A DNA stretch of 64,000 nt from Methylacidiphilum kamchatkense Kam1 (GTDB lineage Bacteria; Verrucomicrobiota; Verrucomicrobiia; Methylacidiphilales; Methylacidiphilaceae): assembly GCF_007475525.1 (NCBI RefSeq), contig NZ_CP037899.1, positions 1,736,001 to 1,800,000 on the forward strand, in the 5' to 3' direction. This document shows, piece by piece, positions 6,469 through 23,765 of this stretch (the stretch's first letter is position 1; each line of letters begins with the position of its first letter). A program made the position numbers and the translations under genes. The notes beneath the pieces were generated by a model. That model saw only the letters and a program-made list of their open reading frames with translations, had not been told where the DNA came from and made no database searches.

Positions 6469-7440
6469 ATGATGAGACGGGTACTTTCTGGAATTCAACC
6501 CTCGGGGTTTCTGCATATTGGTAATTATTTTGGAATGATTAAGCGGGCAATAGAATGGCAAGACAAAGCCGAAACGCTTTATTTTATAGCTGATTATCAT
6601 GCCTTAACGTCCATAAAAGATCCACAACACCTCTCTCAATACGTTAGAAAAATAGCCATGGCCTTTTTGGCCTGTGGTCTTGACCCAGCAAAGTCTATAT
6701 TTTTTAGGCAAAGCGCCATACCAGAAGTCCACGAGCTTGCCTGGATCCTTTCTTCCATCACCCCTTTTGGATTACTAGAAAGATCGCACAGTTTCAAAGA
6801 TAAAGTCGCCAAGGGCCTTTCCCCCACCGTGGCTCTTTTTTCTTATCCGGTACTGATGACAGCGGATATCCTACTGTATCAGTCCGAAATTATCCCGGTG
6901 GGACAAGATCAAAAACAGCACCTCGAAATCGCCCGGGACATAGCCAAAAAATTCAACAATACCTTTGGCGAGGTCTTCCGAATCCCAGAACCAGACATAC
7001 AGGAAGAAGTAGCTATTATCCCTGGAATAGACGGCCAGAAAATGTCCAAGTCTTACAATAACACTCTTGAAATTTTTGGAGATCTCGAAGAATTTAAACG
7101 AAGGGTCATGAGCATTAAAACAGATTCTACCCCCATCGAAGCTCCCAAGCCAACCAAAGGATCCATCCTGGTAGCGCTTTATAAGCTCGTTGCCACGGAC
7201 TCAGAATACCAGGAGTTTATTGCAAGTATGGAAAAAGGGGGGCATGGATATGCTTATTATAAAAAGCTGCTCCTTGAAAAACTCCTTGCCTATTTTCAAC
7301 CTATTCGAGAAAGGTACAAAGAGCTAGAAGAAAAACCAGGCTATGTTGAGGAAGTGCTTGCTGATGGGGCCTACAAAGCAAGGATGATTGCTCAAGAAAC
7401 GTTAACAAAAGCAAGACGTGCGGTTGGACTGCTCGATTAA
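6469..7440 (+). CDS. trpS: Tryptophanyl-tRNA synthetase
   Basis: This is a 323-residue class I aminoacyl-tRNA synthetase. The HIGH-type signature HIGN is at residues 16-19 after SGIQPSGFL, and the KMSKS signature (GQKMSKSYNN) is near residues 191-195. MTADILLYQ and VPVGQDQKQHLEIARDIA-like wording (here IPVGQDQKQHLEIARD) are diagnostic for TrpRS. It charges tRNA-Trp with tryptophan. The start used is the first of two ATG codons (6469, 6472). The next gene begins 13 bases after the stop. Confidence 0.97.
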   Translation: MMRRVLSGIQPSGFLHIGNYFGMIKRAIEWQDKAETLYFIADYHALTSIKDPQHLSQYVRKIAMAFLACGLDPAKSIFFRQSAIPEVHELAWILSSITPFGLLERSHSFKDKVAKGLSPTVALFSYPVLMTADILLYQSEIIPVGQDQKQHLEIARDIAKKFNNTFGEVFRIPEPDIQEEVAIIPGIDGQKMSKSYNNTLEIFGDLEEFKRRVMSIKTDSTPIEAPKPTKGSILVALYKLVATDSEYQEFIASMEKGGHGYAYYKKLLLEKLLAYFQPIRERYKELEEKPGYVEEVLADGAYKARMIAQETLTKARRAVGLLD

Positions 7441-7453
7441 TTCATTGAATACA

Positions 7454-8269
7454 ATGGGCATAGACATTTTCCGGACTCAATTAGAAAAGATCGACAATAG
7501 GATTCTGAAGTTTCTGAATCTACGGATGAAACTTGCCCAGGAGATTGGAGAAAAAAAAAAGTCCTGCGGCTATCCTATTCTTGATACTTATAGAGAAGAT
7601 AGGTATCTAAAAAATCTGAAAGCCCTCAACCGAGGGCCATTGCGGGATAATAATCTGGAAGGAATCTACCGAGAAATCTTTTCTTCTTCACGCAGTCAGC
7701 AAGGGGGATTAAAAATAGGCTGTCCAGAAAGCCACTTTCTTTCTTGTCTCCTTGCTTCTCTTTTTAGATTTGGGTCGAGTAGTATTTTTGTCCCCATTTC
7801 GATGCACTCTACACAAACAAGGGACGGGAAAGAGCCAGAGGTAGACATAATCGTAATTTCGATCCATCTCCTACTAAAAAAGCTCCAAGAAGATCGGTCC
7901 TTTCTTGTTTCCTTTCTTCCCTCTTTTTCGCTAGGGGGTGAAATCGACCTTTCTCCTATTCTCTCTTCTCAGTCGGTGGATAACCCATATTTCTTTTTCC
8001 AAAAACATGCGACTCCAAAAGAAAATGCCGATTCGTTAAAAACGGTCTTTCTTCTTGGAGGCATGTTTCCCCATGAAACTTTTCTGTGGGTAGAGAATCA
8101 AAAAGGAAAAGTTCTTTACTGCAGCGTAGATGCTAACAATCCGAAGAATTCTTTTTATCTTTGTGAAAAAACGGCAAAAGAACCAGACAAGGAAAGTATC
8201 GAATATTTATGGAAAAAATTTACAGACAATAATGGCTGGATAATTTTGATAGGCAGCTATCCTGTGTAA
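7454..8269 (+). CDS. PheA-like protein: chorismate mutase domain fused to a degenerate prephenate dehydratase/ACT region
   Basis: From the ATG at 7454 the protein has 271 residues. Residues about 4-80 are a clear AroQ chorismate mutase: R6 in FRTQLEKIDNRIL, then NLRMKLAQEIGEKKK and YREDRYLKNL keep the arginine and lysine positions that bind chorismate. The linker IYREIFSSSRSQQGGLKIG is the usual PheA linker before the dehydratase. The remaining roughly 180 residues lack the GPEGTFT motif, the catalytic TRF motif and the ACT-domain ESRP motif, yet the protein still ends IGSYPV like PheA. I infer an active mutase with a non-catalytic remnant of the P-protein. A GTG at 7418 would overlap trpS and is a less likely start. 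A regulatory role of the remnant domain is speculation. Confidence 0.75.
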   Translation: MGIDIFRTQLEKIDNRILKFLNLRMKLAQEIGEKKKSCGYPILDTYREDRYLKNLKALNRGPLRDNNLEGIYREIFSSSRSQQGGLKIGCPESHFLSCLLASLFRFGSSSIFVPISMHSTQTRDGKEPEVDIIVISIHLLLKKLQEDRSFLVSFLPSFSLGGEIDLSPILSSQSVDNPYFFFQKHATPKENADSLKTVFLLGGMFPHETFLWVENQKGKVLYCSVDANNPKNSFYLCEKTAKEPDKESIEYLWKKFTDNNGWIILIGSYPV

Positions 8270-8295: not shown

Positions 8296-8742
8296 ATGGA
8301 TTTTGAAGAGTTACCCAAAAACGCGGATAGATACTATTTCAGTTCTCCAGCTAAGGGGAAACTCAAGGATGCTAACAGTCAGTCCAAAGGCTCATCTCCA
8401 AGAAAAGTAGGTCCAAGAAATCTTCTCCCTCCCCATCTTTCTATCCAAAATAAAAAACATCCACCTCCAAGAAAACTAGGCTTTGCTCCTACCAGTCATC
8501 CTCCTACTGAAGCTTCCACTACGTCTTCCTCAACGGCTTCTACGACAGGAAAAATCTCTTTTCCTTCCCATACTAACCATTCTAGCTTTGCTTCGACATC
8601 CCCTAAATTTCCCAAAGGACCAGACAATAAACGACAAAGCCCCCCGGATTTTATCTTAGATCGGGAAATAAGAAAAGTTCACCCCCCTCCTAAATATGCC
8701 ACTTCAAAACCCCTAAGCCCGACCAATCTAATAAGGAAATAA
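8296..8742 (+). CDS. Pro/Ser/Thr-rich disordered protein (probably the N-terminal part of the next gene)
   Basis: This 148-residue frame is low in hydrophobic residues and rich in Pro, Ser, Thr and Lys (for example PPPRKLGFAP and a Ser/Thr cluster around residues 75-90). It is predicted to be disordered, and I recognise no family. Adding one base in the A4C4 run at 8706-8713 lets the frame continue through KPDQSNKEITKPS and a basic RRKW stretch into the membrane segment of the downstream coiled-coil protein. The two frames are therefore probably one gene (8296-9863) of about 520 residues with a cytoplasmic disordered head. It starts 26 bases after the PheA-like gene. Confidence 0.55.
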   Translation: MDFEELPKNADRYYFSSPAKGKLKDANSQSKGSSPRKVGPRNLLPPHLSIQNKKHPPPRKLGFAPTSHPPTEASTTSSSTASTTGKISFPSHTNHSSFASTSPKFPKGPDNKRQSPPDFILDREIRKVHPPPKYATSKPLSPTNLIRK

Positions 8743-8789
8743 CCAAGCCATCCACTTTTTCATCACGAAGAAAGTGGATTAGCATTCTT

Positions 8790-9863
8790 TTGCGGATTTT
8801 TCTCTATATTGGGATTTTGGCTGCTGGCGTAGGGGCGTATTACTCCTTGAGAGAAACTCGGATCGAAGGATGGGTAGCAGTCAAAGACATCACCTTACCC
8901 AACGAAATCTATCTTGTTTATGACTTTTCTGGAGACATCAAAGCCTTAAGAGACAATTACCTCACGACTATTGGCCCTTGCCAGGAAGACATCCAGAACA
9001 AAAAGGAAAATCTAAAAAAAGCAAGAACGGACATCACTGCACTGAATGAAAGACTGAGGCTATTAAAGCAGCAGGAACAAGTAGCCGAAACAGAAATTCA
9101 AGTTGTTGCTAAAGAGTATCAAGAAAAAGCCGATCATCTCTGGAAGAACGAAGGTGTGCTGCTCGACCAAGAATATGATAAAAAACTGGCCGAATTAGAA
9201 GACCGTTTCAAAGAAAGAGCTCAGCAATTAGGAATCGATTTTACTATTTCTTCTGCGGAGGCACGCTCTCCAGAAGCTTGGGTTAATGCCTATAATCTTG
9301 CCTTATATAATCCTCCCCCTGAAATAGACCCTGCCAAAGAACGCTTATGGGCTGAAGAAGAACTTAAAAAATGGCATAATTTTGAAAAAGAAAACGAGGC
9401 TAAACGCGAAGAACTAAAAAGACTGACCAAAGAAATTCAATCTGAAGTTGGACCTAAGATTCAAGCATTGCGGGAACAGATCCTCCGTCTTCAATCCAGA
9501 ATTAAGGACAGCGAGTTGGAGATAGCTCCACTAGAACAAGAATATGCTAACAATGAGAGGGAGCTTTTAGAGGCCGAAGAGACGGAAAGAAAAATAAAAG
9601 AGCGTTTCTTGAAGGATCTAGAAAAAATACCAACCAATAGCATCAGAGAAAAAATTCCGCTCAGTAAGGATGGCCACTTTGAATGGAGAAGACTAGATCA
9701 AAATCCAAAAATTCCTCCAGGCCGCTATTTTCTGTGGATAGCCATCAAAAAGGAAGGAAAAGTATGGTGGTCTCTATTTTCTTTTCCAGTCAATGCTTTT
9801 TCTCTTACAGAAATTATTGTCCTTCCTGAAAGCTTCATTCCTATTGATTCCCTTTTAAAATGA
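8790..9863 (+). CDS. Single-pass membrane protein with long coiled coil (likely C-terminal part of the gene starting at 8296)
   Basis: Starting at the TTG at 8790 the frame gives 357 residues: a membrane segment (RIFLYIGILAAGVGAYYSL) and a domain of about 60 residues. A long charged coiled coil follows, interrupted by a PEAWVNAYNLALYNPPPE loop (about residues 75-300). The C-terminal globular segment contains ppGRYFLWIAIKKEGKVWWS. No family is recognised. The TTG start lacks a good ribosome binding site, and the codons upstream stay open back to 8694 (basic RRKW before the membrane segment), supporting fusion to the preceding frame by a one-base correction. Placement just ahead of the mre operon suggests an envelope role, but that is inference. 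Confidence 0.6.
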   Translation: MRIFLYIGILAAGVGAYYSLRETRIEGWVAVKDITLPNEIYLVYDFSGDIKALRDNYLTTIGPCQEDIQNKKENLKKARTDITALNERLRLLKQQEQVAETEIQVVAKEYQEKADHLWKNEGVLLDQEYDKKLAELEDRFKERAQQLGIDFTISSAEARSPEAWVNAYNLALYNPPPEIDPAKERLWAEEELKKWHNFEKENEAKREELKRLTKEIQSEVGPKIQALREQILRLQSRIKDSELEIAPLEQEYANNERELLEAEETERKIKERFLKDLEKIPTNSIREKIPLSKDGHFEWRRLDQNPKIPPGRYFLWIAIKKEGKVWWSLFSFPVNAFSLTEIIVLPESFIPIDSLLK

Positions 9864-9905: not shown

Positions 9906-10645
9906 CTAAAGGGCTTGGGGAAGTGATTGATTTTTAGCAATGATTCCTAATCTTTGAAAATTCTCTTTTAAATCTAAAACGGAAGGTTGTCCAAGGGCAG
10001 CAGGTTTGTCAATATACCCATAGACAAGTCGAGATCCTAAGGCTGACAAAACAATTCTTGAAAGATGGGAAAATTCGCCAATACCCATTAAAGACCACGG
10101 AATTTTAGGATAAGAAAAGAAAAGTTCTGTCAACTGCTTGAGTTGCCTGAGGTTCTCAATTCTTACGGCAACCTTTAGAAAATCTGGATCGAGTAATTTT
10201 ATGTCTGGAAGAGAAGCAATAAGCTTGTCTAAATCTATAAACTCAGACAAAGAATGAATGGAGAAGATAATTTTTTCCCTCCATTTTTATAAAGCGAATA
10301 AATTGGAGAGAGCTTTGAGTATTCTTGCCACTCCAAATCCACGCAATCGACATAAGGAAAAAATTTCTCAAACAGTTCGCTCCTTTCACAATCAGAGAGT
10401 TCGAGCATCCCCCCTTCTTTTTTAGATCTAATCGTAAGCAAAACAGGTAGGGAACGCTCTTGGAGAGATCTTTGTAATGCAGCGATTCCTTCTGTAAAAT
10501 TCAATTCTAGGAGAATGGAGTCCAGTCGGTACTCAATCAGATCAATAGGAAGATGATTGGAATAGGTGGCTTTCACACCATATTGGGTAGATATGGTTCC
10601 AACAACAATCAAAGGTTTTTGAGTTGGAAAGAAAGGTTGATTCAT
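9906..10645 (-). CDS. aroD: Type I 3-dehydroquinate dehydratase, interrupted by a one-base frameshift
   Basis: Two frames (10645-10235 and 10250-9906) together give one complete type I dehydroquinase of about 245 residues. The first half holds LIEYRLDS with the substrate-binding Glu and Arg. In the second, KIIFSIHSLSEF contains the catalytic His, FLKVAV the Schiff-base Lys, and MGIGEFSHLSR and AALGQPS the phosphate/carboxylate-binding Arg and Gln. The break is at a run of six T (10271-10276, A on the coding strand). Seven would read GGKKIIFSIHS without interruption. The enzyme makes 3-dehydroshikimate in the shikimate pathway. All catalytic residues are retained, so an assembly error is more likely than a pseudogene. 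It is divergent from mreB. Confidence 0.88.
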
Positions 10646-23544: not shown

Positions 23545-23765
23545 CTTTTATAGAGTGAAGAGGGCCGAAAGCCTAATTTCTTTCAAGAAATGGAATGCAA
23601 GCAGAGCTTTATGCCTTCCTCAGGTTTTTTGACTTGCAAGCTATCCCTCATGGAGCTAGTATTTCAACATAAACACGCACGTAATCGCCTTTGGACAAGT
23701 GGTGCCGTTTCCAAAAGGCAAAAGATTGTTAAGAAAACTACACGAATAATTTAAATTTTGAAATT

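Follow-up and report, generated by a model that had tools for sequence, protein, structure and literature searches.

A predicted membrane-anchored hairpin protein family of the order Methylacidiphilales, and the interrupted copy of its gene in the Methylacidiphilum kamchatkense Kam1 assembly

Membrane fusion proteins such as HlyD, AcrA and EmrA are built from an N-terminal anchor, a short beta segment, a long antiparallel hairpin with a conserved tip, and a beta domain at the membrane. RodZ, a partner of MreB, consists of a cytoplasmic helix-turn-helix, one membrane helix and a periplasmic beta domain; we know of no long hairpin in this protein. A gene in the window, by which we mean the whole stretch of 64,000 nucleotides of M. 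kamchatkense Kam1 that was analysed, codes for a protein whose predicted layout recalls parts of both. Its features, and the neighbouring gene to which it is most often linked, are as follows:

7418..8269, + strand: chorismate mutase gene, directly upstream, a conserved neighbour (PF01817, E 4e-18; upstream in 30 of 31 loci)
8296..9863, + strand: whole gene, a single protein in relatives (522 residues in L031), broken in this assembly by a single-base deletion
8296..8721, + strand: Pro/Ser/Thr-rich, basic head, predicted disordered and probably cytoplasmic (from identity, dN/dS, model and charge)
8458..8472, + strand: first HxPP[RK] motif of the head, HPPPR (read from the translation)
8680..8694, + strand: second HxPP[RK] motif of the head, HPPPK (read from the translation)
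about 8719..8721, + strand: single-base deletion relative to the relatives (DNA alignments)
8766..8855, + strand: predicted membrane helix with basic residues (RRKW) before it (model helix 3-32, low confidence)
8904..8921, + strand: predicted short beta strand between membrane helix and hairpin, then a conserved [DN]F (model strand 49-54, low pLDDT)
8931..9230, + strand: predicted ascending hairpin arm of about 100 residues (helices 58-130 and 132-157, block pLDDT mostly 72-92)
9231..9329, + strand: predicted hairpin tip with the most conserved block, EAWVNAYNLA (top 10-residue block of the family, 3.33 bits)
9330..9623, + strand: predicted descending hairpin arm of about 98 residues (helix 191-288, block pLDDT mostly 81-93, 71 at the end)
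9624..9863, + strand: predicted C-terminal beta domain, probably near the membrane (strands 295-300, 322-331 and 334-343, low confidence)

As a comparison of how such proteins work, the predicted N-terminal anchor, beta segment, hairpin with conserved tip and membrane-side beta domain liken this protein to HlyD, AcrA and EmrA, from which its long proline-rich head sets it apart; its beta strands, of low pLDDT, may or may not form a lipoyl fold. The HlyD profile TIGR01843 matched three of 24 members (best E 0.015), and the Pfam families of the membrane fusion group were absent from the best 25 of 148 families. The analysis identified no partner or phenotype, nor any transporter gene among the identified neighbours (trpS, scpA, scpB, chorismate mutase, prmA, or aroD and mre), the neighbouring open reading frames being identified in part only. 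With the antiparallel coiled coils of SMC and Rad50, which appear among the Foldseek and VIA matches, it has the hairpin geometry in common; unlike them it has no ATPase head, is a membrane protein and is kept where SMC was not found. On the first member the SMC profile TIGR02168 aligned over profile positions 245-444 alone, at 18 bits against a cut-off of 567, with no head ATPase domain. The predicted external hairpin also recalls EnvC of the FtsEX-EnvC system, and an FtsE/FtsX/EnvC chain was matched in VIA (195 residues, rmsd 6.2, with a Z of 9.4 that is uninformative for long helices); unlike EnvC, the protein had no LytM-type family among its listed Pfam matches and no ftsEX among its named neighbours. 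Like RodZ it would be bitopic with the N-terminus inside, and in the family of the window it lies near mre, but a helix-turn-helix match was absent from the eight proteins with heads that were scanned (E up to 0.1).

Searches against described families returned generic coiled-coil matches, both in Pfam (best E 0.00012 among the best 25 of 148 families) and in NCBIfam (best E 9.2e-07, SMC_prok_A, among the best 25 of 58 families), the cut-offs of both collections being known for the first member only. The best hit to PDB sequences had an E of 0.00078, none of the 824 Foldseek matches of the first model reached E 0.001 or better, and the best VIA Z, 10.5, is within the range that is uninformative for long helices. 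EzrA (PF06160) was considered as a candidate and rejected, as member 1 scored 13.2 bits against a cut-off of 39.6. Among the papers listed on Verrucomicrobia and Methylacidiphilum that concern the envelope, mreB, coiled-coil proteins, hypothetical proteins and the scpA/scpB/trpS operon, no title or abstract opening describes the protein. The first-pass annotation, made from the sequence of the window, had recognised no family, and the best-listed Pfam and NCBIfam matches, all generic coiled coil, agree with it: we find this protein family under no name, and it occurs throughout its order.

In the window the gene appears as two open reading frames, one for the head (8296-8742, 148 aa) and one for the coil (8790-9863, 357 aa), the latter beginning at a TTG that lies within the membrane helix. 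Upstream of this start the coil frame stays open as far as 8694; the upstream part reads ...STFSSRRKWISILLRIFLY... into the membrane helix, and both frames are open over the 49 bases 8694-8742, an overlap of phases that the first-pass annotation had pointed out and that was found as described. The relatives search returned four other genomes of the same genus (G001-G004), and in each of these the head, membrane helix and coil lie in a single open frame, which from one stop to the next measures 522-543 codons; only the copy in the window is split. With the coil part as query, no stop was seen inside any of 40 matches in 39 genomes. The proposal that the two frames are a single gene is thus borne out by G001-G004, where the homologues are not separate genes: 8296-9863 holds a single gene, and the lack of one base interrupts it in this assembly. 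The missing base does not lie where it had been placed, namely in the A4C4 run at 8706-8713, an extra base in which was to join the frames. In DNA alignments this run has equal length in the window, G001 and G004, and the gap aligns at about 8719-8721. Programmed ribosomal frameshifting would be another means of joining the two frames, and the 49-base overlap would allow it; given that the four congeneric genomes encode the protein without a shift and that the A4C4 run is no different in G001 and G004, its probability is close to nil. The gene was accordingly rejected as a programmed-frameshift gene, the shift not being conserved in relatives that have one open frame.

The head frame, whose conservation the first-pass annotation had left as a point to be checked, is kept in frame in all four congeneric genomes, with 88% identity to G001 and G004 and approximately 46% to G002 and G003. 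Its dN/dS was 0.23-0.40 over ten genome pairs. On account of this identity and dN/dS in relatives the head is, at the level of sequence comparison, a real coding frame. For the coil, dN/dS was 0.04-0.14 in the seven computable pairs, four of them with dS above 1.6 and three further pairs being saturated. The coil of the window gave 0.066 against G001 and 0.102 against G004, and G001 against G004 gave 0.14; the window copy shows no sign of relaxed selection.

The Kam1 genome was assembled with HGAP3 from PacBio reads at 489-fold coverage (PMC6688271). It is one contig of 2,202,032 bases, identical to the published final size, and the word "polish" does not occur in the text of the genome paper (PMC6688271). 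Its authors noted that a frameshift in hyhL was absent from their draft and may be a sequencing or assembly error (PMC6688271); that draft was made with 454 reads (PMC4358389). To count broken frames we kept 69 open reading frames of at least 120 codons from 80 kb of G004 and compared them with the window. Matches were found for 54, of which 43 were in one piece and 11 were not. Eight of the 11, this gene included, have single-base losses in the window; those set aside were one short remote match, one frame cut by the edge of the window, and one doubtful break near 23740, a two-base insertion in a frame with no NCBIfam match. As a control, 33 of 36 frames of G004 were in one piece in G001, the exceptions being two short partial matches and one possible break, and in the reverse comparison 32 of 34 frames of G001 were in one piece in G004. 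When G001, which covers part of the window, was compared with the window itself, 28 of 34 frames were in one piece. The seven other genes with a single-base loss, all intact in G004, are broken near 10276, 13843, 39348, 45391, 47942, 49208 and 63181. Their best NCBIfam matches were to aroD, mrdA (PBP2), leuA, an acyl-ACP ligase/acyltransferase, an HDIG-domain protein, phoH and sdhA; three of these matches, to aroD, the ligase/acyltransferase and phoH, fall short of the curated cut-off.

Because of the eight single-base losses, the PacBio/HGAP3 assembly and the hyhL precedent, the split in the window is almost certainly an error of the consensus sequence. A real frameshift would mean that the Kam1 gene was recently broken or is phase-variable, and that the head alone, or the head and the coil separately, are made. 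The reported 489-fold coverage and the position of the change outside any long single-base run speak for this reading, which we nevertheless consider very improbable: the eight genes with single-base losses lie in the same 64 kb and several are presumably indispensable (mrdA, leuA, sdhA), the genome authors themselves suspect such an error in hyhL, the dN/dS of the coil is no higher than that of intact copies, and the downstream frame would begin at a TTG within the membrane helix.

In a full-length model of L031, an intact relative, residues 1-158 have block pLDDT of 36-45 and no secondary structure. The heads of the four congeneric relatives carry a net charge of +17 to +20; the count starts where the open frame does and hence takes in a few residues before the ATG. 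Each of these four heads has two copies of the HxPP[RK] motif. The heads of genus g3 have one, or two in G008, except that two heads truncated by contig ends have none; the motif is absent from the head of G005 and from the other families. The head of L008 (G008) contains a tandem repeat of about 100 residues with one HxPPR motif per copy. A scan of eight proteins, heads included, found no domain over the cut-off in the head.

Charge was compared in windows of 20 residues either side of the most hydrophobic stretch, leaving out beforehand the piece from the window, one duplicate and three contig-cut sequences. As first counted, 24 of 26 homologues were more positive before the stretch than after it; L005 was then dropped, as the stretch chosen in it is not the membrane helix, which gives a fair count of 23 of 25, the other two (L009 and L020) being ties. 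From this charge pattern, the one basis for the topology, we infer that the head is in the cytoplasm and the rest outside, anchored in the inner membrane. The layout proposed at first sight, a disordered basic head, one membrane helix, an external coiled coil and a C-terminal domain, is upheld by these data, with the external placement of the coil probable.

Both models, the first and that of an intact relative, place two arms of about 100 residues on either side of a compact tip, the block pLDDT of the arms being mostly 72-93 in the first model and 63-95 in the second. Beta strands stand both before and after the hairpin in the first model, but only after it in the second; their pLDDT is low in both. 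The models were built from an alignment of two near-identical sequences, or from one sequence, and their beta parts and membrane helix are of low confidence. At 0.15 nm per residue, 100 residues give by arithmetic a hairpin of about 15 nm, which, as predicted from the sequences and models, would rise from beta segments by the membrane and end in a strongly conserved tip. The phenylalanine of the [DN]F that follows the short beta strand is invariant in alignment A1. After the top block, the next most conserved ones are a second block in the tip (2.65 bits) and one in the C-terminal domain (2.61 bits), and because these two are nearly equal the tip is not the sole candidate site; in the C-terminal domain one W and one F are invariant in 15 of 15 aligned members. 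The Ig-like profiles Y_Y_Y and WxLIP_HBD matched the C-terminal part in four of 15 (best E 0.0063) and five of 15 members (best E 0.015), respectively, in neither case in the first member. No solved structure in the PDB matched the C-terminal part below E 1 (best E 1.3). A carboxypeptidase-regulatory or transthyretin-like domain, which the sequence had led us to expect here, was rejected, as no such family was found in the profile scan. Taken jointly, the identity of the gene, the cause of its split and its anatomy are in our judgement quite likely to be as described.

With the coil part as query the gene was found in 39 of 40 genomes of its own order, its own genome included, and in all 15 genera; the single genome without a match is 86% complete. 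In a sample of 288 genomes of the phylum, searched with a single sequence, seven have the gene (own included), all of the same order. In the class, 46 of 286 genomes match the 24-sequence profile of alignment A1 at E 0.001: 36 belong to the order, five others from three families match strongly (E 1e-31 or better), and the remaining five, weak partial coil matches, were disregarded. No relatives were found in viral contigs. Within the order as sampled nearly every genome thus has the family, and outside the order it occurs in a few further families of the class. One genome (G032) has two matches, L093 and L094, on separate contigs and each behind a chorismate mutase gene; a duplicate or contamination is possible.

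Thirty-one loci from 30 genomes, the window included, were read with flanks of up to 6 kb; some flanks are shorter, and the counts are therefore lower bounds. In 30 of them a chorismate mutase gene precedes the gene on the same strand, at no more than 6 kb; ScpB is upstream, likewise on the same strand, in 21, and PrmA downstream in 11. Pfam confirms examples of the chorismate mutase, ScpA, ScpB and PrmA neighbours. What the loci have in common is the context trpS-(scpA-scpB)-chorismate mutase. In six loci (L040-L044 and L050) the end of the chorismate mutase frame overlaps the start of the gene's own, which suggests coupled translation. Around scpB, 17 loci of class members without the gene were also read, of which 13 were readable (not so L095, with its anchor lost, L104, where the contig ends, and L096 and L108, with no chorismate mutase found), and in these 13 the family profile matches none of the frames listed behind chorismate mutase. 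As scpB and chorismate mutase stand together without the gene elsewhere in the class, it seems that the gene joined an old operon, and that mre came near in one family only. The chorismate mutase gene of the window has approximately 190 further residues with no Pfam match, where L043 has a prephenate dehydratase and an ACT domain; this extra part is possibly a degenerated dehydratase.

The first-pass annotation had taken the position before mreBCD-mrdA-rodA as a clue to function. A part in the cell-shape machinery, as a scaffold working with MreBCD, PBP2 and RodA, would suit the layout of the protein, and in all eight loci read from the window's own family mreB does lie downstream, at a gap of approximately 0.9-2.9 kb. 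These eight are, however, exactly the loci of the 31 with mreB within 6 kb, an aroD gene on the opposite strand intervenes in each, and none of the 23 loci outside the family has mreB within 6 kb (less at contig ends), so that the linkage is not kept across the range of the gene. Whole genomes gave the same picture in 20 cases: in three of the own family mreB is 1.4-2.9 kb away, while in the 17 from outside it is on another contig in 14 (draft genomes) and 42.7 kb, 62.5 kb and 3.1 Mb off in the other three, the last 0.6 Mb if the contig is circular. A specific role with the Mre system is for these reasons unlikely, although a scaffold of the envelope in general is possible. Of the earlier interpretation, then, the single gene, its layout and the lack of a recognisable family stand, and the mre neighbourhood as a functional clue does not.

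The other conserved neighbours raise the question of a membrane anchor for the chromosome, working with the SMC-ScpAB condensin. ScpB in 21 of the 31 loci, SMC coiled coils among the Foldseek neighbours, and matches of SMC_prok_A to 13 of 24 members would all fit such a protein. We rate it as highly improbable. Seven genomes, five of the genus and two of g3, a genus of the same family (G000-G004, G006 and G007), gave no match to ScpA or ScpB and, for SMC, low-scoring coil matches alone; G005 and G019 have ScpA, ScpB and SMC, the ScpA of G005 below the cut-off. All seven genomes without detectable SMC-ScpAB, from two genera, retain the gene, and because they do, its work does not need the condensin. 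In addition, the charge pattern places the coil outside, the pair scpB-chorismate mutase also occurs in other families of the class where the gene is missing, and the SMC likeness of member 1, far below its cut-off, is confined to the coil. The apparent loss of condensin in these seven genomes is an observation in its own right.

A head inside, a single membrane helix and a long outer hairpin whose distal end carries the most constrained residues suggest to us, tentatively, a periplasmic spacer or adaptor. The hairpin would hold out its conserved tip towards a partner, either at the cell wall or at the outer membrane, and the head would hold a cytoplasmic partner, in two genera perhaps through the short HxPP[RK] motifs. 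We rank this adaptor reading above a specific role in the Mre system. A bolder form of it, which we offer as a rather doubtful speculation, is that the family represents a new class of periplasmic spacers, seated in the inner membrane, whose gene entered the trpS-scpAB-chorismate mutase operon in the ancestry of the order; a hairpin set in a split beta domain would fix the distance between the inner membrane and a partner in the wall or outer membrane, and the disordered cytoplasmic head would report or anchor that state.

The analysis explains why a gene of a published complete genome looks falsely split, and it sets aside the mre neighbourhood, a clue that was tempting but misled. Base losses that break a frame occur about once per 8 kb, at least within these 64 kb, which matters wherever the assembly is used for gene content. 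What is left is a clean, nameless family with a testable layout, its function proposed from sequence and models: a membrane protein family that is order-wide and selectively constrained, in a group that includes acid-loving methanotrophs.
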